A stretch of 64,000 bases of DNA, taken from contig NW_024883040.1 of the NCBI RefSeq assembly GCF_019059575.1, forward strand, positions 62,001 through 126,000, in the 5' to 3' direction. Of the stretch, positions 6,886-62,410 are shown one piece after another; position 1 is the stretch's first letter, and each line of letters opens with the position of its first letter. The stretch comes from Amphibalanus amphitrite. Lineage: Eukaryota; Arthropoda; Thecostraca; Balanomorpha; Balanidae. The notes beneath the pieces were generated by a model that had not been told where the DNA came from, ran no database searches, and worked only from the letters and a program-made list of their open reading frames with translations. A program made the translations under genes and the position numbers.

Positions 6886-8653
6886 TAGAGTTGCAAAATT
6901 TCCCTACCGCACTACCGGCATACCGGTAATTTTTCACTACCGCAGGTTTTTTCGTGGTATCTGGCATGTCTTGCCGGTAGCATGCCGGTATTTTTGACAT
7001 TGTGCAAAAAAAAAAATATATCAGCATATGATGCAAACTTTGGACACTAAGAGGCTCTCAAATTGTAATAACAGCAATATTAGCCACTGCAAGATACATT
7101 TTGTGGTAGAAGTTCCATTGCTAAAGGTAGGAATAACACATGGACCTCAGCATTTCATAGGCTTGGTTATAATTAGAATTGTCAAGAATCTACTGTGGTC
7201 TATAAAAGGAAGAATACTCATACATGTTGCAAAAGCACGATCAATTAGTAAGTCTAATGGTAGGTAATACTTGGGTAATACATATAACACAATAAAATAA
7301 ATAAATGTTCATGACAACATTCCCTAGGGGAAAAAGCAGAATCAAAACACACAAAAAAAAACACATTGTTTGAAAACTGGCCTTGAGTCCTGAGCTCATG
7401 AGATGTGGTCTGAGAAACTCTACAAAGAATTTGACACTGAAAATCCAGCTGAAAAGGCAGGTGTTAGGTAGCCCTGAGCCTGACTTTGGTCCCATAATTA
7501 AATCAAAATGGATTTGAACTGGCATTTTGTCTTATCTTTACAAGAAAACACAGAAAACACATTATGCAGGCAAAATTGACACAAAGTGGCGCACTAATAA
7601 TTTGACCAATTTGACAACCAAGGATTACTTTAAAGATTCTCTCTCCGATAATGAATGGATGATGTAATCTGATGACGTATTATTTATTCATATGCCCTTT
7701 TGGTTAAATAACTGAAGAGAAATGAATTTTCTTGTAGTTAATTAGACTCACAATGTTGATTTCATTATAATTTAATATTGTGTTGGATGATTTTTATCAA
7801 TATAATCATTCACGAGGCAGTGGCTTGCAGTCGTAAAACTTTTTTTGCAGCGTTTTAATCAGCTGGTTAAAGCCTCTGTTATGGCGCATCTGTTTCGAAA
7901 TTCTTGATAACCTTGAACCTTGTGTTTGTTCCTGTTTGAGCTTGGAGAGGGAAGATATCGTTTTTATACATATTATTTGGTGACTGTTCTCAGGACCAGT
8001 GAGTTATTAACACATTTTTACATGATTCATATCTTATTCACGAACCAGCAAGCCATAGTGAACTAGGAAACAATAGATGTTGATCTCGCTTCCTCAGTTA
8101 GGAAAATGGCCGAATCTGTGCTTGTTTATGTTTTTACCATCTAGATTTTGAACATTTGGCTGGTGCCTGCAACATTTTAGGAAAATGTGGAAAAGTAGAA
8201 CACCTGTGAAATGTAAATGTGATTACTGCTCACTGTCCAGTCTTCAGAAACACATTTCAGTAATTCAAGTTCTTTTTCTCCTCGCCTTTTTTATGAATGT
8301 GTTAGTTTTTTTTTGTAGGCAATACTTCTTTGATTACAGGTGATATTTTAACAGTTATAGATTGGAATTGAGTTTCAAAATTGTGGGTATTTGTGGGGCC
8401 AACTCAGTCAAAATCAGCCTGCTGGTATTTGTGGTTAAACAATGGATGGCTGCTGGGTGGGACGAGTACTGAAACAGCCAAAATGTGGCATCTCTTGTAG
8501 GGGTAAGCTAGAATCAAGAATACAGGTTTTTTAATATGCCGGTAATTTGGCGGTTTTTTGGCTTGGGGTGTGGTAGCATGCCGGTATCCCAGAAAATTTT
8601 TGTGGGGCGGGGCGGTGCCGGTAGCAGCCTTTGGGGAAAACTTTGCAACTCTA
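6886..8653. mobile_element. hAT-type non-autonomous DNA transposon, 1.77 kb
   Basis: Terminal inverted repeats read TAGAGTTGCAAAATTT at 6886 and, on the other strand, TAGAGTTGCAAAGTTT ending at 8653. A perfect 8-bp target duplication ATCTAAAT flanks the element (6878-6885 and 8654-8661). TIRs of this kind and 8-bp duplications are the hallmark of the hAT superfamily. Inside the ends, both arms carry several CCGGTA/TACCGG words, including GCATGCCGGTA, which probably act as sub-terminal transposase sites; that role is inference. The interior is AT-rich, its longest frames are under 100 codons, and no transposase is seen, so it would need an enzyme supplied elsewhere. The intact ends and perfect duplication argue for moderate youth. 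Confidence 0.93.
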
Positions 8654-9647: not shown

Positions 9648-12600
9648 GACCATGACTGAGCTCTCGCTGACCGCTGATGCGACTTTGAATAGGTGACTTG
9701 TAACGCCGCTGAAAGCTCAGCCGATTGGAGCCGGCTGACGAGTTTTGGAGGCCGCGAATTCCCGAAACCGGCTCATGAATGAGCCCGCGCCGACTGAGAG
9801 GCGCGTAAAAACGGCATTGTTGAGGCGCCGGGACCCGCTCAGACCGTGCCGCTGACAGCCCACTTCATGCCGCATGTCAGCGCTGATGCTGAGTGACCTC
9901 CCTCGCCGTCGTATGACCTCCCAGGTAACTTACCTGGCGACGGGTCTGCGGAGCTGACCTTCCCCAACGCGGGCCGGCTGCCGCACCTCTGCTACCGTGC
10001 AGGTCAGGCGCGGTGTCAGCGCCACCACCGCGGGGGTCGTGTCGGGACGCCCTCAGCCCGAGGAGAGAACGGTCTGAGTTAGCCGGCTCGCGCGCTAATC
10101 TGACGTAATGGCGCGCCCGAATGGCGCGAGCAGCGCGTTTTTGTGGCACGTGGCCGGAGGAACGGCGGGCCGCCAGCCGCGGGAACACGAAGGCGACTGG
10201 CGACAGTCGTTTGTTTCTCTGAACGGTGCAGCCATGGCGTGACCGACATGCAACAGCTCTGTGCGTGTTTTTTTTTCTTCAGTGTTTGAGGATTGAAATG
10301 CAGATTTGATTGAAGATGAAACGGGGACGTTCAGCAATATGCAAGTTGTTGCATATTGTAATGAGTAGAAATTTAATATTCATTTGCATGCTTATCAGTT
10401 CAGCAGTCCAACACCCCCGACATTCATATCATATGGGTCACAAAATGGTTAAGTCTTTCGAGCAGGATAACACAGTGTTGTTTCGCAACCGGAATGCAAA
10501 CCTCAATCAAAAGTAATACGAATGTGCCAATCACCTTGATGAGGACCTCCCGGACAACCAGTGAAGTGGACCGTTTATCCCCTCCATCTCTGCACGGCTA
10601 TCCTCAGCTCTGCTCGGGTGGACCATGGACGCCAGTCGCAGCTGTTCGCCCCCCTCACAGGACCCCCCCCCCCCCCTAAAACGGACGGGCCGGCTGGCAC
10701 GGCCGTCACTGGACGTCACCAGGTATAATTTGTCCGCGCCGACCGCTTTCACTGGGACGAGCCGATTATTTGTTGGTTTTGTGCGCGGCTCGACTGAGGG
10801 TGCGGGGGGCCGACGGTCGAGGACGACGCCGGGCTCCCGGCGATTTTATATAAAACCCTTTGGCCATTGGGTCCTTTGAGGGGTGCGGCGGGGAGTCAGA
10901 CGGCTGTCGCTGGTCGCCGGTGGGACGCCGAAGGCCAGTGCCGAGACCACTGAAGGGCCAGACGGCAGCGAATCGCCGGCTAACGGTGTGTGACCAGAAC
11001 AGGGTGGTGGGAGAGATTCTAATTTCGTAGAGAGATAAAATATGGGGTTCTGCAAATAATATCAACCCTTGGATGCCTAAACACTTCCAAGCTTTCGAGT
11101 GAGATATAAATGAAATATTTAGTCGCAAGTATGATTTTTAGTTTTTCCGTCCTTTTAAACAGAGTTTTCTTTCAGACTCCGCACATCTATACATACATAT
11201 ATGCGGATTAAGCGTTGCCACTTTCATATCGATCCGCTTCTAAAACATCTGCTCTTCTTCACCTGTGTAAATGTATATCCAGCTGAGAAGCGGACGGCAG
11301 TTCGGAACAGATGAGGTCACTTACCCAACTGACAAAGCAAAATTAAGAGTTTTTTCCTAAAACTAGGACCAAAGGCAAGCTGAAAAATGTATAATAACCC
11401 TGAGGGCTGGGAGAGCGCTACAAAGAAAAAAAATGAATAGAGAAAACATTCAATTTATACTTTACCTGCATTTTTGACGTCTAAAAGCGTGCACAAAATG
11501 TGTAAAAGCGAACAGTTTTATCGTCTTTTTTGCCCGCAATGAAAGAGCTGAGCAGCGATCTGATCATTGGTGACCTATGTTAAACCTGGAAGTGGAGATC
11601 TTATGCGCTTGCTATCGCGTTCTCCGTTTTTCCTAGGGCGTGAATCTTATCAGGTATTTTTCGCCGTTTGGAACTATTTGGCGAAATCGCTGTTCATCGC
11701 ATGGCTTGTTGCTTTCATGTCGTAGTACCTATAATCACCTGTGACCTGAGCTGCAAATGAGGCAGCCAACCAAATGACAAATATTTATTTTTAATGTTTG
11801 AATGTTTGCTACTCTTCCCTCCAAATCCAAAGAACTTGAAATAATAATGATAATAATAGTAATTACAGCAGCCGCTTCGTCCTCACGGGAAGGATTACAT
11901 GCTACACAGAAGTAGACGGTAAAGGTGAAAGGAGGCGATATGCCAAAGTGCAAAAATCACACGTTTGAGTGGGGCGAAATGATAAGGAGCCAAATGTGGC
12001 GACACATATGCAGCTAGTGATGCCTATTGAAGCGCTGTTTCCGTGAACATTGGTAACACAGGTGTTATTGGCGATATACAGCATATTAGGTACATGGCGC
12101 ACCTTTGTGGGGGAAGACATCGCATTAGGAGTGTTTGGGACACAGCTGTGTAGCCGCACTTGTTGAATGTTAGTCTTCTTAGTAAATAGGACGAATACCA
12201 TTACGGGATTAATTTATAGACCCCAATGAATGAGCTCCCAATTTTCCTGACGGCGTGGGTGCTGCACCCTAGCGGTGACCTTTTGAAGCTGTCTGATCAG
12301 TGACTCTAAAAAGGACAGCAAAACCGGCGGCGCATGGCTATCGATAACAGGACGGCTGATGAATGGGTCTCCTGGTGGTCCGCCGGCAGTCGACATTCTT
12401 TGTTTGAGCGCAGAAAGCAACTATGGAATCGAAACACTCGCCATAGCGAAAAATGTCCGACAAAAACGCATGCCACTGGCGAGGTGAAAAGAATCAAATG
12501 GTCATTAGATCTTTTTGTCCACAGCATTCTGTAATCTATATTAACCTTGGGTCAGCTAATCGGTCTTTTATTGTAATCAGGTTTTAAAATATTTACAAGT

Positions 12601-13440
12601 CAAATTCGATGAAAAACAATCACCAGACATTGTCCGTGGATTAGCATAGGATATCGATTTTAATTGGCCGGTCGTCCGGAGCTGGTCCGTGGACGGTGGT
12701 TTGACCTCTGACTCCGGATCTCTAGTTACCAAAGCGCAGGCGACCCGGCTCATCTCCGCATTATTCCTTCCCGATAATTTATCTGACTGGAGAGCGGAGA
12801 GCTTATGGCCAGCACGCGTCCAATCAGTGTGTGCTCGCACGGTGACCCGAAAACCAACAGCACCATGAATTAGGGAAATCAGACGCTCTGCTGGATAACA
12901 ACAGGCCTGTCGATAAAATGTCCAAACATCAAATGAGCTCTATATCAAACATGAAAATCAGCCTAGAATACTCCTGAGGAGGTTTCATCCATGGCGTGTC
13001 TCGGCGAAGTCAAGAAAGCCAACGCTCGGAAAAAACGTCTTTAATTATATCTTTTTGCTTCATTTCTATCTCTGGATCTTTACCGCTAATACTATGGTCA
13101 TGCATGGAAGGGTGTGTTGTGGTTCGCAACGCCAGGTCACATCATCTTTTTGTTCACAATCGACGTTTTTTTCTCAGGACAAGATTGATAAGACGGGCAA
13201 TGGATTGAACTGAGAGGGACGTTGCAAGGCTCTAGAGAAGAAAATTTTGAACAATCCACGGATCCCAACCGCAAGGCTCAATGGTCTGACTTTGGTTAAC
13301 CAGTAAGTAAAACATACGCTGAAAATGAATTAAAAGTCAGTGAGCATCGGAGTGAACAGGCTCTTGCACATTTTCACATTATATCTCCAATATCTTTTTT
13401 AATGGTCATTTTATATGATCATAAGTCAGTTGGAAGCAAA
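9648..13440. other. Intergenic DNA with GC island at 9.7-10.2 kb, no gene
   Basis: The GC-rich part at 9.7-10.25 kb has only chance frames. A nine-C run lies near 10669. From 11.0 to 13.4 kb the sequence is AT-richer, with a short ATAATAATGATAATAAT tract near 11838-11860. The longest frames are about 120 codons, unrelated to anything I recognise and overlapped by others on the opposite strand. Confidence 0.45.
10847..10855 (+). promoter_or_regulatory. Possible TATA box
   Basis: TATATAAAA matches the consensus well and lies inside a GC-rich setting, which makes it stand out. No clear initiator or downstream coding exon can be paired with it, so it is only a candidate core promoter element on the + strand. 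Confidence 0.25.
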
Positions 13441-13534
13441 TCCAATCAAATCCAGCAGCTGGCATCAGCGTCTCCCTTTCTGCCCGGACCCACGGCACCC
13501 ATGTTCCATGCCTTCCCCCCTGGCGTACCCCCTC
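13441..13534 (+). CDS. Possible coding fragment (Pro/Ala-rich), unidentified
   Basis: The + frame across this stretch reads as a Pro-rich peptide containing PFLPGPTAPMFHAFPPG, followed by VPPQQ. It looks more protein-like than the surrounding frames and resembles the low-complexity linkers of transcription factors or RNA-binding proteins. A CAG just upstream of the segment could be a splice acceptor, but it lacks a good pyrimidine tract, and no strong donor follows. I do not recognise the gene, and chance is a real alternative. Confidence 0.18.
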
Positions 13535-13540
13535 AGCAGC

Positions 13541-15615
13541 TGTGTCGTATCGTCAGATTGGTAGCTCGCGCTGTCAGACCACTTCCTGTTTGATGGGCGC
13601 CGGGAAATCTCGCCAAAGTGGTGCACACTTCTCGTACATGGCCGACTTCCGTTATATCGACTGCACCCTCGCCTGCTACCGGGAACGCCCCAGCCCCCCC
13701 CCCCTCCCTCGGACCCGTCCCACTGCTCTCTCCCCCTGCTCCCGGTCCCGTCTACTCCCCCCCCCACACTCCTCTCAAAGACCCATCAAAACGGAACGGG
13801 AGAGTGAATATGCGGGTGATAGGCGAATGCCGTCACATGCTCGTGGCGTCGTGCTTATACCTTTCCTAAAATGGCTAACGCTTTTTTACTGCAATGCAAC
13901 AATGCAGCTACCGACTCAAGTTTTTTCCTTTTTCTTTGAGCAGCCAAGCTTTGATACGAGACTACCGTTTAGTTCAAGCACCTGTCCATAAATGCGACCA
14001 TTGGAAACCACAGGCACTTTGTACTTCGTTCTAACTCGGCTGAATGTTTTAGAAGGGACACTCCGTCTCAACGGCGTGGTGGTAGCCGCCGCGCCGGCCG
14101 GCCTGAGAGAGCATCCCGGCGGCAGCGGCGGTCCCGCTGTCGAAACCGTCACAACAGTGGCGTCTGGAGCGACTCAGTATCGCCGCCGGTACCGACGGCC
14201 GCCCTCACTTGTCGCTGTCCTCTGGGGCAGATGCCGCGGTCTGCGACCATCACCAGAGCTAATTGGTCCTCCGAGACACCGCCGGTCTCCACCGGACCCC
14301 TCCGATAGAGACGTGAGAATGTGGAGACGCGGGTATAGTGGCAAGGCCTGGGAATACGGCTAAGACACCTGGCTCACGGCAGTCAGTAATTGGTCCAGTG
14401 TTTGACAGAACTGGTGGCGGCTGTCAGGACTGAGAGCTATGGCGCTGCCGTGGTTTTTACACCTTCTGGGTGCTGTTACATCACTCATGCAGGAGGTATG
14501 CGCGTCCGGAGAGCAAATGGTTTTGTAAAGCGATGGTCGTGATCCTTTTAGTGAAAAAAGACGGCACCATGTATTTTTTGGCAGCACCTGGTTCGAATGA
14601 ATCTAGGATATGCGGCACTGCAAATTGAGACATCCGCCGACTGATGCATGTTCAGTCTTCATTCTTCTTCAGTGATGAAAGCAACCGAAGCTTGGCGTGA
14701 ACGTTCTGACTAAAATTGCATGCATTCGAAATTGATGCATAGTTTTCTTAATTTGTTGGTTATTATACATATGTGTAATAGCGCGTACGTTTAAAGGATT
14801 CCCGAGAGGGGCGACATCAGCTTGCACCGACGGACACGAGAGGCCATTTTATGCCACGGTACTGGCCACGAGGGCCCACGGGGGCCACGTGTGACCACAG
14901 AGGGGCCACATGTGACCACAGAGCCGCGCTGCCGGCCACGGGGCCACGTCAGCGTCCCCGGCGGCGGAGCGGGCGGCCGATGCGTCAGTCCGACATCGCG
15001 GCCACATGTGCACTTGTGCAGCATGTCATTTGGTCGGTGCTGGCCGCGGCGCCGGCGGCTCCAGAGGGGTGGCGGCGACACAAGTGTTCCGGACAGGACA
15101 GCGACACAAGAACATCGCCGACAGGCGGCCAGCCGCTGCCCACCGTCCCCGCCCCCGCCCCCGCCCCCGCCGCCGCCCCGGCCGGTCGGCCGCGCCACAA
15201 GTGTCCCCAGCCGCCGCTCCGGTACACCGCCGTCGTTTTTGCCGTGCCGTCGTGTCCGATATTCATTTTGACGTCGGAGCGCCGGTAAACGAGCGCTCGG
15301 CCCGCGGCCGCGCCGGAGCGCCGTCTGTTTTGCATAATAAATTGCCATGGCCCCAGTGTACGGTGAGTATTTATTGTGAGCTGGTGCGGTCGACGGCGGA
15401 CCGGCTGACCTGTGGTGGTTCGGGTGACCCCTGGTGACCTTTTTGGTTACCTCAGGTGACTTCAACTGACCCCTGGTGAGCCGGCGTTGCCGACAATTCG
15501 TTCGCTGGTTTGTCTTAGCGCGACAGTGACTGGGGACGAAGTCCGACGGACCGAGGGGATGCGTGGTCCAAGACCTGCGGGCTAGGGACCGGAGGGACCA
15601 ACCATGGGTCTGTGG
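13541..15615. other. Mixed intergenic DNA with C-runs and short tandem units
   Basis: C-rich runs lie near 13690 and 13753. Around 14860-14925 the unit GGCCACRTGTGACCACAGAG appears twice in tandem, and (CCGCCC)n-like sequence sits at 15145-15180. Frames of 140-220 codons at 14.8-15.5 kb occur in several registers on both strands and reflect the repeats. No gene is supported. Confidence 0.45.
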
Positions 15616-20996: not shown

Positions 20997-22233
20997 ATTA
21001 TAGTACATTTTTGCCGCCGACGCATGTTAAAAAAGTTCAGTTAAATTTTTGTATAAAGGTGGCCTGCTGAAAGCCAGAAGCGCGAGAGACGGTTAATTTC
21101 AGTCGACGCCAAAACTCGGAAATGCCTATCAAAACCCATGCATAAAAACACGGCGGTTAATTTCATTATACGGCAGTTTTCTTCTCTTCAAAAGCTCCCT
21201 GTTAAACAATGCGTTCGATGACTGAAACTTCAATAAAAGTCCGGTCAATCGGTCATAGAAGTTTGCAGCTTGGAATAGAGTAAATTGCGAAACAGGTTGA
21301 CAGGTGAATTTTGAAAAGAACACAGCCTTAATGTAATGACTTATCGTATGCATTTCAAAGATATGGCTTGGCAGGTTACGCAGAAATTTAGAAGGCAGAT
21401 TTCGAGGTACGTTCTCAAGAGCCAGTGAAAATAACAATTGAAGATGAACCTTACAAAACGGGAAGAACAGCACTGCCAGGAGCCAGTGTCTGTAGTAAGA
21501 TCGACGTTTGTTATCATACCTTCATGGATATTGGATGTCAAAATATAGAACGCAACGACATTTTCCCACTTATGAGGACAAAGCATGTCTCCGCAACGCC
21601 TACTCCTCACTCGCAATTGCTTCGTAGCATGAATGTCTAATAAAAGTAACAGACGCGTCTCGCATGTTTACCAGGAAATATCTGAGAAATGAGGGATGAA
21701 TTTCAAGCAAAATACGACGTGGTAGGCAATTTACAATTTGTATACGTATACTGAAACCAAGTGGTAGATTAATTACATTATTCGCCCATCGTGTGTTAAA
21801 GTCCATTGGCAATAATTTTCATTATATACGCCCAAAGCTGTACCAATTTGCTGCCCCCCCCCCCATCTTCCATGCCCATCCTTGATGTCGAAGCCCAAAA
21901 GCGAACCCTTTCTCAGAGATGCGTTGGTGCTCGGTGCCAAAAATTTACTATAATAAATTTAATTACCCGGTCCGAATACTATACCAGCCATGATACGGTC
22001 GCTTTTCCTCAAGGGTGTTTTCATTGAATGTGCTCGCAGGCTCGCACATTCAATGCGAAAATTGCACTCATTTCATTCGTGCAATTTTCGAAAATAGCAT
22101 CCTCACTCCGTTCGGACGCTATTTTCGATAAAATAATGTCCTCACTTCGTTCGGACATTATTTTAAAACACCCTTGGGAAAGCGACCGAAATAATGTCTG
22201 GTATAGTGCTCGGACCGGGCAATTAAATATATA
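20997..22233 (+). repeat. Left inverted arm of the 6-kb element
   Basis: This arm mirrors 25760-26998. Its outer end starts with ATTATAGTACATTTTTGCCG. Its inner end coincides with the end of the four-hairpin cassette at 22228, and similarity to the other arm stops a few bases later. The near-identity over more than 1.2 kb means the arms arose, or were homogenised, very recently compared with other repeats here. A run of 11 C at 21854-21864 is the only length difference noticed. Confidence 0.93.
21958..22228 (+). mobile_element. Four-hairpin cruciform cassette, left copy
   Basis: An imperfect outer stem of about 60 bp runs from TTAATTACCCGGTCCGA (from 21959) to AAGGGTGTTTT (22011-22021). It pairs with AAAACACCCTT (22165-22175) through TCGGACCGGGCAATTAA (to 22226). 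Inside lie four back-to-back hairpins: 22022-22055, 22056-22090, 22089-22127 and 22130-22164. Their 12-14 bp stems differ completely in sequence between some hairpins, while the loops of the last three are related (TCATTTCATTC, TCACTCCGTTC, TCACTTCGTTC). A TTAA sits at each outer end, so a TTAA target site is possible. It may be an independent MITE or the inner end of the long arm. No coding capacity is visible. Confidence 0.88.
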
Positions 22234-23545
22234 TTATGCGCGTCTTGCCGAGTGTATTGCCTGCACTAGTAAAAAAGTCTACTTGCCCATTTGTATCTTA
22301 AAGTGAGATTTGTTTATTTGATTGTCGAAATTATCTTTCATACAAAGGGCAAGGAATCATTAACTTGCATCACTTTCTCTGATGCTTATGAAGCACAGAT
22401 GACAGCGAGATGCGCAGTGTGAGGCCAGGTGACTGGTCAGCTGTGTCTTTTCCGGGCAGCTGCACTCGACAGGGCAGTGGTCACCGTCGCAGCAAATGCA
22501 GCGGTCAGGTGTCCCTCAGAGTTCGTGGGAGCTGACCAGATGTGACGGTAGTGTTCTTTCCGCTTTTGGAGCCTTGTCAGAAGCTGCCGTATAACTTTTT
22601 TTGTCTGACCCATAACCTGCCCAAATAAAATTTGCCATCACTGCATGCCTGACTCAGCCGTTAGCACAAAATCTCATTTATTTTAATGTGCAGCACGGTC
22701 CTGATTTAAAATGAATTGCATTTGCATCTAAAAAAGGCCGCTCCTATGTATTACCAGCAGCTTTCATTGCAATTACAAAAACGTTTTTACGTAGGTACAC
22801 CAAATTTTGGATCTATGGCTTTGGAGCTGAATCCCAAGACGAAATAAAATGAGCAGCAAATCTATGTAGATACCTACCAATGATGAATACCAACACGAAA
22901 TATGTAAACCATCCCGTTGGTCTATCCGTTTCCTTCTTGTGTCACCTTGGAAGTGCACTGTGAACCGCATCAACGCCACCCAAGGCTCCGACGAATACCA
23001 AGCCGGTGACTGGCCGGAACCCCTGACCACTGCCACAGGCTAGGGCTTGTGTGGCTGCAGGCAGACTGACCGCAGATTCCTTCAGGCAGGGGGCCAACTG
23101 GGAGAGGTGACGTTACCTACGCACTCGTAGAGACCAACGCAGCCCGCGGCGCGACGCTGGGTCAGATAGAATTACTCACCAGAGAGGACTGGATGGAGAA
23201 ACACATCTCAAAAGAGGCTGACATTAGTGAATTACAATTAAAGAAGTTTAATAGACCGATACATGAAAATAATCTGAATGCTGAAAAGGAGTAACTTGAC
23301 CAATGAAAGGTGGCACGCAGGCGTGAGCCGACTCTATAGCTCACCAGCGCATATCAGCACCATCGTCTCGAAGCAACTAACTATATGAATATCATATTAT
23401 GTTGCAATTTACGGCAACTCCGATAGAATGACACGTGGGTTTCGGCAGTAAAAACTCCCCCATCCACCCCCTGCTGAGCCCCCCCCCTCCCCCGCATCGC
23501 CTGCGGGTAGATGTTGGTGGGCGCTGACCGCCCCCCTCCCCCATA
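22234..23545. other. Left part of the spacer inside the 6-kb element
   Basis: Mostly unique sequence. A C-rich part lies at 23457-23545 (CCCCCCCTCCCCC-type runs). On the minus strand a Cys/His-rich frame at 22360-22515 is described separately. Other minus frames at 22773-23036 and 23162-23344 are under 90 codons and unrecognised. Confidence 0.4.
22360..22515 (-). CDS. Cys/His-rich open frame, possible terminal exon fragment
   Basis: Between an in-frame TGA and a TAA, 51 sense codons on the minus strand encode a Cys/His-rich peptide: CICCDGDHCPVECSC near the start, then a His pair (HLASHC) and CHLC near the end. The spacing C-x-C-C-x4-C-x3-C-x-C and then H-x3-H-C-x3-C-x2-C looks like metal-binding knuckles. 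A CTGAG|GG acceptor-like site lies just at the open end, so it could be the last exon of a longer gene, possibly of the surrounding element. I recognise no family, and chance cannot be excluded for so short a frame. Confidence 0.22.
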   Translation of the reverse strand, partial: GTPDRCICCDGDHCPVECSCPEKTQLTSHLASHCASRCHLCFISIRESDAS

Positions 23546-25460
23546 CACAGCTGGGGCATTCCACGATAGATCGTACCACTTTTTTCCAATTTGACACCCT
23601 CATCTCTCGGAATTTGACGAGAATTGGTCTCAGGGGTAATCAGGGACTCTGAATCCACCTGTAACAATTTCAGGCTTATCAGATAAGTATTTTTTGAGTT
23701 ATGGTGTATAACATTTTTGGATCTTGCTTTGCAGCGCTAAGTTTGGCGGGCTGTAACTCTAAGACGGATTATTCAAATGCCAAATGTTATATAACATTGA
23801 ACTTGCAATGAAACAGAGATTAATATGTATTTTTGAAATTTCGAAAAATACGCTGTTTTTTATATATGCCATATCGAGTTTTCTTTCATTTGTATTTTTT
23901 GGACTTTGGGACCATTTTTTTTTTGAATTTTTATTTCTTTAAAAAAATATTTGGCTTATTGTTAAGAAGTATGCAAACAATTAGGAAGGTGTTCTTTCTA
24001 AAAATGTATTTATTTTACGTCACGATTACGGTTTCGAATAGTGATTTCGGGAGGGGAGCTTACAAATGGCGTGGTAAAGCTGCCTAGTGACATCACGGGT
24101 TACTGAAATTTCAATTTAAGTCTGAGTCATCTGAAAAAAAGTGAAAAGAGGGTTCATTCAACCCTCTTTCCTATAAGCGCGAGGGTGAAAAAGGCTGTTT
24201 GGTTCTGACATTGTTTTGGACGCCAATGACCATAGCTGTCCGAGATGAAAGTTACAGGACGCATACATGGTGTCCTCCAGAGGTCTCACAACTTGTATAT
24301 CTGGGAATTTTTCAAGGTTACATGAGGTCAGGTCGGTCACGTGACATCACTGTTATAAATCAATGGGGAAATATAAAAACTGTTATTTTGGCGCCGAGAT
24401 TGATCTAAAACTATCCCACGTACATGGTATCGTGATTTCATGCACTTCTTGCAAAGCCCAATGCTTTACTTTTACATTGTTAACCTTGCGTGACGTCATT
24501 TATGAAGTCACTAGGGTCGTACGAGTTTTTCGTCAATAACTCCCGATCAAATGGAGCTAGAGAGTCGGGAAAGCCACCAATGGACTCGGGAAGACCTTCC
24601 GAATCGAATGATATGCCATATGATACCCTTTGCCCAGTTTCGTGACCTGAGGGGCTCTGACCTGACTTTGACCCGAGGTCAACTACTTAAGTTGACCGCA
24701 CCCTAGCAAAAAGTATACCATTCGATGCACCTGAGCTAGGCGAACACAATGATGCCAAAAATTGCGGCTCTGCGGCCATTTTTCGCGAAGTTATTGACTA
24801 AAAACCGAACCCGTAACTTCAGTCACGTGACCTGACCTCAGACGCTACCGGTTAACCTGAGACCTTAAAATCGGGTACCAATCGCTGCGACTTTTAACAG
24901 CACATACGCTCGTTTTTTCCGCGAGGCTCTAGCTCTATTAGAAGCGAAACGGCGTGCTGGGGTCGTATCAACCCCTCCGAAACCCATTTTGTTTGCGGGA
25001 AAATGAGGAACTTATAGAAAGAACACCTTTCTAATTTTTTGCATGTCGATTTGCAATGATATGAAGATTATTTTGAAAAAATAAAAATGTGAAAAATTTT
25101 GGTCCCAAAAGTCATTAGAGGTAAATGAAAAAAGATTAAGGTTTTTGCTCAACAATGAAATTTTTTCTTTGGAATTTTTAAATAGTAATATTAATTTTTG
25201 ATTCATCGCAAGATTAGTGTTGTTTACTTTTTGTTGGTTGCTTAACCCGTTCTTGAGTTATAAGCCATCAAACTCACCGTTACATACCGAAGTTAAAAAA
25301 ATGTAATGCAATATAACTCAAAAAGTTTTGATCTGAGAAGTCTGATATTTTGCCAGGCGTCTTTGGGGCCTATGATTACCCCTAGGACCGATTTTCATTA
25401 AAATCTGAGAGATGAGGGTGACGGGCCTGGTACGATCTATCGTGGAATGCCCCAGCTGTG
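23546..25460. mobile_element. 1.9-kb foldback element with CACAGCTGGGG ends
   Basis: The ends CACAGCTGGGGCATTCCACG (from 23546) and its reverse complement (to 25460) match perfectly for at least 30 bp, through GATAGATCGTACC. Weaker pairing continues inward, for example CTCATCTCTC against GAGAGATGAG and GGGGTAATC against GATTACCCC. A second inverted pair, AGGAAGGTGTTCTTTCT (23984-24000) against AGAAAGAACACCTTTCT (25017-25033), brackets the centre. The central part is a diverged TTAA-element block. No clear target duplication was found, and the superfamily is unknown. Confidence 0.72.
24150..24990 (+). mobile_element. Diverged TTAA-element body within the foldback element
   Basis: Colinear with 34070-34985 of the intact TTAA element. 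Shared landmarks in order: GTATATCT-GGATTTTTC-type sequence, ATGAGGTCAGGTC, TCAATGGGGAAA, TGGCGCCG, TGACGTCATTTATGA, GTTTTTCGTCAATAACTC, GAATCGAATGATATGC, and ACCTTAAAATCGGGTACCAA followed by CGCTCGTTTTTTCCGCG. The terminal CCCTCGCCGG repeats and the long G/C runs are absent or unrecognisable, so either this is an older copy that lost its ends or the foldback element is a relative built on the same core. Confidence 0.75.
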
Positions 25461-25582: not shown

Positions 25583-25759
25583 TGATACATTACCCAAATA
25601 CTGTCTTCCTTTCAAATAACTTATTCTTCTTATGTCATGAACAAACAAAAAATAGAAGACACGATCTTGAAAAAAAATACGAATAAAGGAGTTCGACGAA
25701 AACAAATTCACCCAAGCTTACCCAGATATCAAGCATGCACAATGCACATAATGCAATAG

Positions 25760-26998
25760 TATATATTTAATTGCCCGGTCCGAGCACTATACCAGACATT
25801 ATTTCGGTCGCTTTCCCAAGGGTGTTTTAAAATAATGTCCGAACGAAGTGAGGACATTATTTTATCGAAAATAGCGTCCGAACGGAGTGAGGATGCTATT
25901 TTCGAAAATTGCACGAATGAAATGAGTGCAATTTTCGCATTGAATGTGCGAGCCTGCGAGCACATTCAATGAAAACACCCTTGAGGAAAAGCGACCGTAT
26001 CATGGCTGGTATAGTATTCGGACCGGGTAATTAAATTTATTATAGTAAATTTTTGGCACCGAGCACCAACGCATCTCTGAGAAAGGGTTCGCTTTTGGGC
26101 TTCGACATCAAGGATGGGCATGGAAGATGGGGGGGGGGGGGCAGCAAATTGGTACAGCTTTGGGCGTATATAATGAAAATTATTGCCAATGGACTTTAAC
26201 ACACGATGGGCGAATAATGTAATTAATCTACCACTTGGTTTCAGTATACGTATACAAATTGTAAATTGCCTACCACGTCGTATTTTGCTTGAAATTCATC
26301 CCTCATTTCTCAGATATTTCCTGGTAAACATGCGAGACGCGTCTGTTACTTTTATTAGACATTCATGCTACGAAGCAATTGCGAGTGAGGAGTAGGCGTT
26401 GCGGAGACATGCTTTGTCCTCATAAGTGGGAAAATGTCGTTGCGTTCTATATTTTGACATCCAATATCCATGAAGGTATGATAACAAACGTCGATCTTAC
26501 TACAGACACTGGCTCCTGGCAGTGCTGTTCTTCCCGTTTTGTAAGGTTCATCTTCAATTGTTATTTTCACTGGCTCTTGAGAACGTACCTCGAAATCTGC
26601 CTTCTAAATTTCTGCGTAACCTGCCAAGCCATATCTTTGAAATGCATACGATAAGTCATTACATTAAGGCTGTGTTCTTTTCAAAATTCACCTGTCAACC
26701 TGTTTCGCAATTTACTCTATTCCAAGCTGCAAACTTCTATGACCGATTGACCGGACTTTTATTGAAGTTTCAGTCATCGAACGCATTGTTTAACAGGGAG
26801 CTTTTGAAGAGAAGAAAACTGCCGTATAATGAAATTAACCGCCGTGTTTTTATGCATGGGTTTTGATAGGCATTTCCGAGTTTTGGCGTCGACTGAAATT
26901 AACCGTCTCTCGCGCTTCTGGCTTTCAGCAGGCCACCTTTATACAAAAATTTAACTGAACTTTTTTAACATGCGTCGGCGGCAAAAATGTACTATAAT
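25760..26998 (-). repeat. Right inverted arm of the 6-kb element
   Basis: Reverse complement of 20997-22233. It contains a 13-base G run at 26129-26141 where the left arm has 11 C. It ends outward with AAAAATGTACTATAAT at 26998, next to unrelated flanking sequence. Confidence 0.93.
25765..26035 (-). mobile_element. Four-hairpin cruciform cassette, right copy
   Basis: Mirror copy of the cassette in the left arm. The four hairpins lie at 25829-25863, 25866-25904, 25903-25937 and 25938-25971. The stems and loops are identical to the left copy in my comparison, so the pair gives no independent evidence on how the stems evolved. Confidence 0.88.
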
Positions 26999-34120: not shown

Positions 34121-34516
34121 CTGACCTTTGATCCAAGCCGGATCTTTTGACACCAACCGCATTTTTGGGTCAGGTCAGGTCACTGACCTATGACGTCATA
34201 AGTGAACCTCTGCACGGTCTTCAGATGTCGCAACTTCGCAACGCCCTCACTGCCAGAGGAGATGTCACAGGGAAATGAAACTTGCAGGATCTAGTATCCA
34301 TTATGAGTCTCACAACTTGTATATCTCGGATTTTTCCTAAAGGTCATATGAGGTCAGGTCATTTTCGTGACCTCACCATTATAAGTCAATGGGGAAAAAT
34401 TCAAACTGCTATTCTGGCGCCGGGAACGATCTCCAACTATCTCAAGCACACAGAATCGTGATTTGATGCACTCCTTGCAAGGTTAGATGCGTCACTTTTG
34501 CAATGTTGACCTTGCG

Positions 34517-34536
34517 TGACGTCATTTATGACGTCA
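34517..34536. promoter_or_regulatory. Paired CRE palindromes within a TTAA element
   Basis: TGACGTCATTTATGACGTCA contains two full TGACGTCA palindromes separated by four bases. The same arrangement is intact in the copy at 62305-62324 and one base off in the second palindrome at 24491-24510. TGACGTCA is the binding site of CREB/ATF bZIP proteins. Use by the host is not shown. Confidence 0.5.
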
Positions 34537-35821
34537 TCAAGGTCAAATTAGTTTTTCGTCAATAACTCTTGATCAAATTGAGCTAGCGAGTCGGGAAAGG
34601 CACCAATGGACTCAGGAAGGCCTGCCGAATCGAATGATATGCGACATGACCTCTTTCGACCAACTTCGTGACCTGGGAGTGCTGACCTGACCTTGACCTG
34701 AGGTCAACACCCCAAGTTGACCTGACCCGGACAAAAAGTATATCATTCGACGCGCCTGAGCGAGGCGAACACGATGCTGCCAAAATCGGCGCTCTGCGGC
34801 CGTTTTTTGCGAAGTTATTCACCAAAAACTGAACCGTACCCTGGGGCACTTGACCTGACCTCAGAGGTCACCGGTTGACCTAGGACCTTAAAATCGGGTA
34901 CCAATCTCTGCGTCTCGTAACGGCGCACACGCTCGTTTTTTCCGCGACGCGCTAGCTCCACCAGGGGCGAAACGGCGAGGGGGGGGTCGTACCCGCCCCC
35001 CCCCCCCCTCGGCCGGCGCGTATGTAGAAAACCAATAGGTCCGGCGAGGGTTAAGCAATTAAACGGGTTTGCACGTGCACACATTATTTAGGTGTCATTT
35101 CATGCGCCGATCTTTTTTCTATCCAATGGTGAAGACCACATGTCCCTAGCTACTTTTTGCTATAAGCTATCGTCGTTTTCCCAAGAGATCTCCCGAACCT
35201 GTGGCGCACCACCTGGCAATGGCCAAACCGCGCGCCAGCGCCGAGTGCAAGGTCATTAGAGCTCAGTTTGTCGTAGGGAAAAGGCCTACCAATATCAGAA
35301 AATTTATTTTCTAAGTGTATGGAGCGATGCAGCCTCCCCACAGACGATGTGTCGCATGGTTTCATCGGTTTGAGAAAGAAAGCGCCGATCAGTCTTCTGT
35401 CGGCGTTCCAGGAGTGGGTCAAGACGAGGCTGGAATGGTGTGTGATGCTTGAAGGCGATTATGCGGAGTAGTGTATGCTGTCATTTATCGTGCCAATGTG
35501 TATTGTTTTGATGAAAATATAGAAATTGTCCATTGTGTAGCCATAACAATAAGCCAATAAGCTCTGATGACCTCGCGCTGGCGCTTGGCGCGCGATTTTG
35601 GCCATTGCCAGACTCCTTTTTCATGGTGCGCCGCAGGTTCGGGTGGTCTCTTGGGAAAACGACGATAGCTTGGAGCAAGAAGTCGCTAAGGACATGTGGT
35701 CTTCACCATTGGATAGAAAAAACATCGGCGCATGAAATGACACCAAGAAAACATGTGCACGTGCAAAAACGTTTAATTGCTTAAGGCACTTCCATTACTT
35801 AATAGTCAACCCTAGTAGTTT

Positions 35822-61788: not shown

Positions 61789-62410
61789 CCCTCACCGGAC
61801 CTATTGGTTTTCAAAATACCCCCCCTTCGCCGGCCGAAGGGGGGGGGGGTACGACCCCCGTCGCTGTTTGGCCCTTGATGAAGCTAGAGCCTCGCGGAAA
61901 AAACGAGCGTGTGTGCCGTTACGAGACGCAGCAACTGGTATCCGATTTTAAGGTCTCAGGTTAACCTGTGACCTCTGAGTTCAGGTCAAGTGGCCCAAGG
62001 CACGGATTCGTTTTTTATTAATAACTTCGCGAAAAAATGCCGCAGAGTCCGCAATTTTGGCATCATCGTGTTCGCCTCGCTCAGGTGCGTCGAATGGTAT
62101 ACTTTTTGTTCGGCTGAAGTCAACTTAAGGTGTTGACCTCGGGTCAAGGTCAAGTTAGAGCCCCCCAGATCACGAAGTTGGTCGAAGGAGGTCATGTTGC
62201 ATATCATTCGATTCGGCAGGTCTTCCTGAGTCCATTGGTGGCTTTCCCGACTCGCTAGCTCAATTTGATCAGGAGTTATTGACGAAAAACTCTTATTATC
62301 CTAGTGACGTCATAAATGACGTCACGTAAGGCCAATAATGCAAAAGTGAAGCATCGAACCTTGCAAGGAGTGCATGAAATCACGATTCCGTGTGCTTGAG
62401 ATAGTTTATT
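61789..62410 (-). mobile_element. Truncated reverse copy of the TTAA element
   Basis: Reverse-complement match to about 34435-35050. Reading from the left: the CCCTCACCGG end (one base different), ACCTATTGGTTTTC, the palindrome TCGCCGGCCGA between C and G runs, then CGCGGAAAAAACGAGCG, GACCTTAAAATCGG-type sequence, the half-site clusters and the paired TGACGTCA palindromes (62305-62324), stopping after GTGCTTGAGATAGTTT. Identity to the 34-kb copy looks like 80-85%, so it is older. No TTAA is present at its left edge. The missing part is the other third of the element. Confidence 0.88.

Follow-up and report, generated by a model that had tools for sequence, protein, structure and literature searches.

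The window analyzed here, a 64,000-nucleotide stretch of contig NW_024883040.1 from Amphibalanus amphitrite, contains two copies of a repeated element of about 1.24 kb, the 3′ part of which is a cassette of four hairpins enclosed by an imperfect outer stem (Table 1). Every part of the cassette that the first-pass annotation had described (the four hairpins, the outer stem, its 11-bp pair and the loops) is present in the window. That annotation took the cassette itself to be the unit, however; while the structure is real, what is repeated is longer, running from 20997 to 22237, and the cassette is its 3′ end. Judged by their size, the window copies are nonautonomous.

Table 1. Features of the four-hairpin element, in window positions
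Feature	Positions	Strand	Basis or remark
Family 1 element, copy 1, about 1.24 kb, ATTAT/AGTAC to ATATAT/ATTAT	20997..22237	+	Bounds of similarity between copies; flanks differ
5′ core ATTAT, left end	20997..21001	+	Distinct family 1 left ends: ATTAT 27 of 29, GTTAT 2
5′-terminal sequence, inverted relative to the pre-cassette arm	20997..21015	+	Alignment; family 2 analogue found where predicted
Inner pre-cassette arm, inverted relative to the 5′ end	21918..21954	+	
Four-hairpin 3′-terminal cassette	21950..22237	+	Sequence, RNA fold, alignment of copies
Outer stem, 5′ arm, imperfect, ending in AAGGGTGTTTT (22011-22021)	21958..22021	+	
Hairpin 1, loop TCGCAGGCTC	22022..22055	+	
Hairpin 2, loop TCATTTCATTC	22056..22090	+	
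Hairpin 3, loop TCACTCCGTTC	22089..22127	+	CG in common with hairpin 2; one mispair
Hairpin 4, loop TCACTTCGTTC	22130..22164	+	
Outer stem, 3′ arm, beginning with AAAACACCCTT (22165-22175)	22165..22227	+	
3′ core ATTAT, right end	22233..22237	+	38 distinct ends, by position: A 38, T 35, T 36, A 36, T 29
Family 1 element, copy 2, inverted	25756..26998	-	99.4% identity to copy 1; flanks different

Folded as RNA, positions 21950 to 22236 reach a predicted -141.8 kcal/mol, against a mean of -58.3 for shuffled sequences (z = -17.2; 0 of 200 shuffles as low). Under DNA energies, positions 21958 to 22228 give z = -16.8 for the top strand and z = -19.2 for the bottom strand (0 of 200 shuffles each), and the bottom strand of the cassette is predicted to be the more stable (-96.2 versus -88.8 kcal/mol). 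The fold is that of a branched palindrome of about 270 to 280 bp. A covariance model of the cassette, run on the window, matched only the two element copies, on both strands. Across the window, no Rfam family reached its gathering threshold, and a search for tRNA and tmRNA found none.

Copies and extent of the element

A search of the 807.6-Mb assembly with the cassette identified at least 40 places at 94% identity or more, among 107 candidates, which we refer to as family 1; 39 of the 40 were examined (C76:1012427 was left out). In 38 of these 39 rows, the family 1 body lies directly to the left of the cassette, the exception (L044) being interrupted there, and in 33 it can be traced to the 5′ end, in seven of them with an interruption. 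The 5′ end was not reached in the other six, among which L029 meets the end of a contig. Two pairs of rows (L022/L023 and L042/L043) have flanks in common and are not independent. On the right, similarity ends at ...AAATATATATTAT, beyond which the flanks differ; the left boundary is ATTAT-AGTACATTTTTGCC, at 20997. The cassette is therefore the last quarter of the 1.24-kb element, with the body shared on its left and similarity stopping sharply on its right. A genome search with the body only also returned bodies that no listed cassette adjoins (e.g., C5:1541430).

Three families with paired stem changes

A genome-wide count of one loop plus its closing pairs, CCTCACTYCGTTCGG, came to 180, whereas the reversed control gave 0; of the 180 occurrences, 100 were listed and examined. 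Twenty further loci yielded two additional families, family 2 with at least 40 places at 94% or more (among 105 candidates) and family 3 with 8 places at 98% or more. Damaged copies apart, all three families possess the outer stem and the four hairpins in identical order.

The covariation alignment comprised 17 cassettes (7, 8 and 2 from families 1, 2 and 3, respectively), drawn from the 39 rows and the 20 further loci, some of which are partial. In it, 97.3% of cells are paired, both sides have changed in 35 of 97 pairs, and the covariation score is 0.324, compared with 0.131 for shuffled and at most 0.069 for slid alignments. Further pair types, which make up one of the five measures, were no more numerous than in shuffled alignments (52 versus 57.0, with 499 of 500 shuffles reaching as many). 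When the consensuses of families 1 and 2 are compared, 69 of the 97 pairs are unchanged, both members differ in 25, a single member differs in 3 and no pair is broken; the corresponding counts are 65, 24, 2 and 6 for families 1 and 3 and 68, 23, 0 and 6 for families 2 and 3, all of them read from a structure derived from these same sequences. Nearly all stem changes between families, then, keep the pairing, although they represent few lineages or events, as there are only three families. G-T pairs number 3, 0 and 1 of 97 in the consensuses of families 1, 2 and 3. The first-pass annotation had proposed a search for many copies with compensatory stem changes; there are indeed many copies, and the families differ in a two-sided manner while the loops are nearly constant.

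Within family 1, mean pairwise diversity (22 of the 39 rows, full-length copies only) is 0.054 in the body, 0.021 in the cassette and 0.018 in the first 60 bases. The four hairpin windows (21997-22196), at 0.017, 0.007, 0.011 and 0.009, are the least diverse part; the windows at the edges of the cassette stand at 0.033 and 0.051, the outermost (22197-22246, 0.051) being as diverse as the body. The constrained parts of family 1 are the hairpins and the 5′ end.

One family 2 cassette (L046, C7:1841250-1841750) carries hairpin 4 in reverse orientation, with an undamaged stem. Such a flip is what the resolution of a hairpin or cruciform in DNA might leave; besides L046, no other neighboring pair of opposite-strand loops was seen among the 100 listed pattern matches. 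A family 3 cassette (L051, C93:979450-980000) has an upstream body unlike that of other family 3 copies, and it may be flipped or solitary, because its left edge resembles the usual 3′ end reversed.

A palindrome can also persist through copying, with one arm templating the other during replication or gene conversion and no selection for the fold. Arm-to-arm correction would produce two-sided changes with scarce G-T intermediates, as seen between families, and the flipped hairpin of L046 is compatible with it as well. Nevertheless, it is the hairpins that are least diverse within family 1, the loops and the CC/GG closing pairs are kept across families, and in families 1 and 2 the 5′ terminus, some 1 kb away, also matches the inner arm. 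We therefore regard maintenance by copying as unlikely.

A linked tyrosine recombinase gene

A frame of 616 amino acids, counted from stop to stop, lies in the family 3 copy on contig C220, its end some 0.8 kb short of the cassette. The first 306 residues of this frame resemble a tyrosine recombinase (YR). Phage_integrase was matched above its cut-off (E = 2.1e-7), and a comparison with the PDB returned XerA (E = 1.2e-4). The remaining matches all stayed under their cut-offs: XerA of NCBIfam (E = 2.7e-7) by a wide margin in bits, DUF3504, the recombinase type of the animal Crypton lineage, with 18.7 bits where 29.7 are required (E = 0.0019), and QRICH1 with E = 0.16. By eye, we spotted GYRGRE, HCIR and EWYTS in the frame, which we take to be the R-H-R-Y motif of tyrosine recombinases.

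Used as a query, the YR frame found 67 matches in the genome. Twelve loci are at least 65% identical to it, and at 10 of these a listed cassette follows downstream in the same orientation (the only arrangement queried), at 1.2 to 2.0 kb from the matched part in nine and at 5.7 kb in one. The other two, on C225 and C696, have no listed cassette in that position, nor is one listed for a selection of ten more distant YR loci (28 to 48% identity). Five of the seven family 3 YR loci (C220, C1680, C1551, C1171 and C1746) have a common downstream flank and a common transposon inserted before the YR frame, and they accordingly count as one insertion, which leaves at most six independent YR-cassette loci: the C220 group, C445 and C561 for family 3, C291 and C561 for the family 2 type, and C583. 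At the two family 2-type loci the YR is 69% identical to the query; these two may be related, because their cassettes break off at the same place. On C583, the YR is broken and the cassette lies 5.7 kb away. The YR gene and the cassette move as one unit in several loci.

Both C291 and C561 have a 5′ end of the family 2 type (one mismatch) upstream of their YR genes, at distances of 11 kb and 22 kb, respectively. We infer that these ends belong to the same elements as the YR genes, in which case YR-bearing elements may be 13 kb or longer. The gene belongs to family 2-type and family 3 members and is absent from the window copies; our searches found no YR partner specific to family 1 and confirmed no YR relatives in viral contigs. 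These results do not support the suggestion that the cassette is a self-contained, MITE-like unit: it closes a longer element on the 3′ side, and larger relatives of that element carry a YR gene upstream of the cassette.

The insertion before the C220 frame (about 11956-13677; L070:1-1378) is an apparent TIR transposon of about 1.7 kb with 136-bp inverted ends and many copies elsewhere. Downstream of the C220 family 3 element lies a repeat that recurs at 98 to 100% identity on C1680, C1551, C1171, C1746, C1753, C1172 and C1293; the same seven contigs hold an 89% partial copy of it 50 to 100 kb off, a pattern suggestive of repeated duplication of a large region.

Loops as candidate DNA hairpin caps

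Read on the bottom strand, the loops of hairpins 3 and 4 are GA-AC-GRA-GT-GA, the base that differs between families being the N of GNA, and that of hairpin 2 is GA-AT-GAA-AT-GA. The hairpin 1 loop is GA-GC-CT-GC-GA in families 1 and 2 and GA-GT-TT-AC-GA in family 3. In these consensuses, GA..GA is constant, two inner pairs vary in a complementary manner between hairpins and families, and the tip is either GNA or two bases; the closing CC/GG pairs are likewise kept across families. The first-pass notion of a loop kept while the stem is free to change holds for GA..GA, but not for the two inner loop pairs. Tandem G·A pairing occurs beside GNA triloops. GNA triloops with a sheared G·A pair, as in C-GNA-G, are described as very stable DNA mini-hairpins (PMC4686876, PMC6479982); those are known from oligonucleotides, whereas here the same arrangement would lie within a transposon end and be flanked by GA/GA. 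Under the DNA energies used, closing the inner loop pairs of hairpins 2 to 4 is not favored, costing 0.1 to 0.6 kcal/mol on either strand.

When the second closing pair of the loop is altered, 6 matches result, against 16 for the reversed control, and there is therefore no further hairpin class of that kind. In viral contigs, the 15-base loop pattern occurs in at least 120 stretches, a number for which chance could account. At least one further pair flanks it at 82 of 124 sites, compared with 113 of 372 slid controls, and at least three further pairs at 47 of 124, compared with 6 of 372, although the sites are not independent because several of the contigs are plainly related. We also tallied other hairpins with 11-base loops in these same viral contigs (1.03 Mb), with the seed loops removed. 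At stems of 6 or more, GA..GA makes up 15 of 718 (both strands) and is the commonest class of loop ends, tied with its mirror TC..TC, with two inner pairs in 11 of the 15; at stems of 7 or more it makes up 7 of 256 and is not the commonest (others reach 8), and at 8 or more it makes up 3 of 76 and is tied. Among 10-base loops it accounts for 3 of 714, none with inner pairs. These class counts are only suggestive, because the contigs had been chosen for containing the seed.

Taken as sequence patterns, these observations suggest that the loop caps DNA hairpins in general, instead of being a protein signal peculiar to one family, and that DNA, specifically its bottom strand, is the form that matters. 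As a separate observation, IMG/VR contig L109 (3560-3790) contains a run of short hairpins with differing stems and the loops TCACTCCGTTC, TCGCTTTGCTC and TCGCTCCGCTC, all of which fit GA-NN-NNN-N'N'-GA on the opposite strand.

The first-pass annotation had also entertained a structured RNA, which could be the 3′ untranslated region or terminator of a YR mRNA or a source of double-stranded RNA. The cassette does lie downstream of the YR gene on the same strand in the 10 linked cases (only such cases were tabulated), and its predicted RNA fold is strong. RNA structures are expected to hold more G-T pairs, however, and these are almost absent here; moreover, the caps can be read as G·A and GNA only on the strand opposite that of the YR gene, small elements lacking the gene keep the pairing of their cassettes, and the window matched no Rfam family at threshold. 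An RNA role thus appears quite improbable.

Ends, core and empty sites

The element's own 5′ terminus recurs in inverted form just inside the cassette, as ATTATAGTA(C/A)ATTTTTG in family 1 and as ATTATAACGACTTTGCGCCGTTC in family 2. For family 2, the 5′ end was predicted from the inner arm and then located in five loci; its pattern has 46 forward and 45 reverse matches genome-wide (control, 5), mostly as facing pairs. A family 3 5′ end predicted in the same way was not found genome-wide: of the 22 matches (control, 32), 7 are exact and correspond to the inner arms, and the other 15 are chance-like. Because the 5′ terminus is inverted at the inner arm, the 5′ end lengthens the cassette's outer stem in a circle or a tandem, and the core comes to lie within that stem.

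Core sequences were counted in distinct ends, with one copy of the L010 tandem entered twice and its partner omitted; in addition to the family 1 ends (Table 1), all five family 2 left ends have ATTAT, and 13 family 2 right ends comprise ATTAT (7), ATTAA (4), AATAT (1) and ATTGT (1). On C443 (L010), two family 1 elements stand in tandem with a single ATTAT in common, and on C561 a family 3 end meets a family 2-type start at 193115. Joined-flank queries (30, of which 29 were distinct) revealed uninterrupted paralogous sites for two loci, after two of the four spanning matches had been discounted as the L010 tandem matching itself. That of L013 has ATTAA in a paralogue 97% identical; that of L026 has ATCAT, and its paralogue, 86% identical, lies in the window at 7633-7973. 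In L013, the left core ends with the element's T and the right core with the target's A, which is what a single crossover inside a common core would leave. Another kind of transposase, one that makes a fixed 4-bp target duplication of ATTA, would account for the ATTAT ends as well, and we refer to ATTAT as the probable crossover core.

The outermost ends are not inverted repeats of each other. Beyond the core, their longest shared word averages 3.62, compared with 3.47 after shuffling (102 of 500 shuffles as high), and with the core included it averages 4.72, compared with 4.59 (32 of 500). A TIR MITE of the DDE kind was rejected because its ends would be mutually inverted; here, it is the 5′ end that has an inverted copy, before the cassette.

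At first, we favored a rolling-circle element, namely, a nonautonomous Helentron (HINE) with an oversized 3′ palindrome, moved by RepHel. Helentrons, HINEs and DINE-1, as described in PMC4067079, present the same order of parts (a 5′ subterminal inverted repeat, an inverted copy of it before the 3′ end and a 3′ palindrome), and RepHel genes are abundant in the genome (148 matches). However, no RepHel match lies near a listed cassette (compared by eye; 100 of the 180 loop matches were listed). The two have only contigs C1, C4, C22, C76 and C105 in common, where they are about 300 kb or more apart; a family 1 body at C5:1541430, which no listed cassette adjoins, is 21 kb from a RepHel match. The genes that are linked to cassettes encode a YR, ATTAT-like cores stand at both element ends, and the palindromes of HINEs are given as only 5 to 10 bp and their preferred targets as TT or T-rich (PMC4067079), against a branched palindrome of about 270 bp here. 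We dropped this reading because RepHel genes are unlinked and the YR gene is linked, and consider it very improbable. Several RepHel matches are near-identical copies with open frames of 1800 to 1960 amino acids, and Helitron-type activity in this genome has apparently been recent.

That the cassette is an independent MITE which landed beside several elements is scarcely credible: the family 3 cassette of L051 on C93, with its differing upstream body, would suit such an origin, but the family 1 body adjoins the cassette in 38 of 39 rows and reaches the 5′ end in 33, most family 2 pattern matches pair a 5′ end with an inner arm, and the cores are located at the ends of the whole element.

Discussion

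We propose that the cassette is the 3′ terminus of Crypton-type tyrosine recombinase transposons whose recombination site folds, an explanation that we favor with moderate confidence. Its parts differ in strength: the ends, the core, the linkage of the YR gene and the paired changes are observed, and the circle, the folding in vivo and recognition by the YR are proposed. The cassette is very probably the end of a YR transposon, and an earlier guess that it serves as a transposase substrate fits the evidence obtained since. Whether it would also be a folded recombination site seems to us a nearly even question, leaning slightly toward no. More tentative still, and to our minds doubtful, is an analogy with integrons, by which this would be a eukaryotic counterpart of attC: the YR might recombine a folded, branched single strand or an extruded cruciform, recognizing shape and the GA/GNA caps instead of stem sequence. 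The assignment to Cryptons draws on YR-bearing members that have been partly read, and autonomous members may encode a reverse transcriptase, which Cryptons lack, and so be DIRS-like; DIRS and Ngaro elements combine a YR with a reverse transcriptase and with split or inverted repeats.

In the mechanism that we envisage, the YR would form a circle by connecting the 3′ terminus, ATATAT-ATTAT, with the 5′ terminus, ATTAT-AGTAC, giving the expected junction AAATATAT-ATTAT-AGTAC. The ATTAT core of the circle would then recombine with a similar 5-bp genomic site, leaving ATTAT-like cores at both ends of the element. In the circle, the 5′ terminus would continue the outer stem, so that the whole becomes a single large, branched palindrome with the crossover core in its basal stem. 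The arms of this palindrome would be capped on the bottom strand by G·A pairs and a GNA or two-base tip. This fold, if it forms in vivo, whether in single-stranded or in extruded DNA, could be recognized by the recombinase or by an accessory protein, much as the integron integrase recognizes attC.

Integron attC sites are bacterial, consist of one imperfect hairpin, are recombined by a tyrosine recombinase as a folded single strand and are recognized through extrahelical bases. The present element resembles them in its association with a tyrosine recombinase, a structure that outlasts sequence, a predicted bottom-strand fold and a crossover that would lie in the basal stem; it differs in having four capped arms, and the use of a single strand is a proposal here. 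The element may work like attC in that its structure outlasts its sequence and its crossover would be placed in a basal stem, but we do not class it as an attC site.

Several traits tie the element to Cryptons. As reported for the CryptonA and CryptonI elements of animals, there is a YR gene, and nonautonomous derivatives outnumber autonomous ones (PMC3212892). The same source gives terminal direct repeats of 4 to 6 bp for fungal and oomycete Cryptons, comparable to the ATTAT of families 1 and 2, and mentions a circular intermediate proposed for Cryptons. The recombinase with the presumed R-H-R-Y motif is found in the family 2 and family 3 relatives. Cryptons lack terminal inverted repeats; in the present element the two outermost ends are not mutually inverted, yet the 5′ end does have an inverted copy ahead of the cassette. 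For animal Cryptons, by contrast, PMC3212892 reports no terminal repeats, whereas ATTAT cores occur here at both ends; the word stem "palindrom" is absent from that paper, whereas this element has a 280-bp branched palindrome and an inverted pair formed by its 5′ end and inner arm. The titles and abstract openings of the literature that we surveyed contain no Crypton joined with such a palindromic end.

Because no terminal repeats are reported for them in PMC3212892, the ends of animal Cryptons and their choice of crossover site have lacked a handle. In the present group, both ends are known for families 1 and 2, the crossover core has a probable identity, empty sites exist in two paralogous sequences, several loci link a recombinase gene to the element, and paired changes in the fold are numerous. 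It thus becomes directly testable whether a tyrosine recombinase of a eukaryote uses folded DNA as its substrate. The cap pattern, moreover, offers a reason for the conserved loops, because the occurrence of the same loop on unrelated stems in viral contigs exceeds the control.

Other repeats were encountered along the way. One that contains CTCGCTTCGCTCG, the complement of which holds GCGAAGC between GA and GA, occurs in L034 (at about 1990 and 4480) and in L044 (at about 2900); a family 1 element begins right next to one of them in L034, and in L044 the repeat lies at the interrupted junction. The window itself harbors a dispersed repeat of about 0.6 kb at 24314-24962, 34340-34985 and 61855-62407, in both orientations and 80 to 91% alike, as well as an inverted repeat at 35051-35784, with 161-nucleotide arms that are 90% complementary and separated by 412 nucleotides, which is possibly a foldback element.
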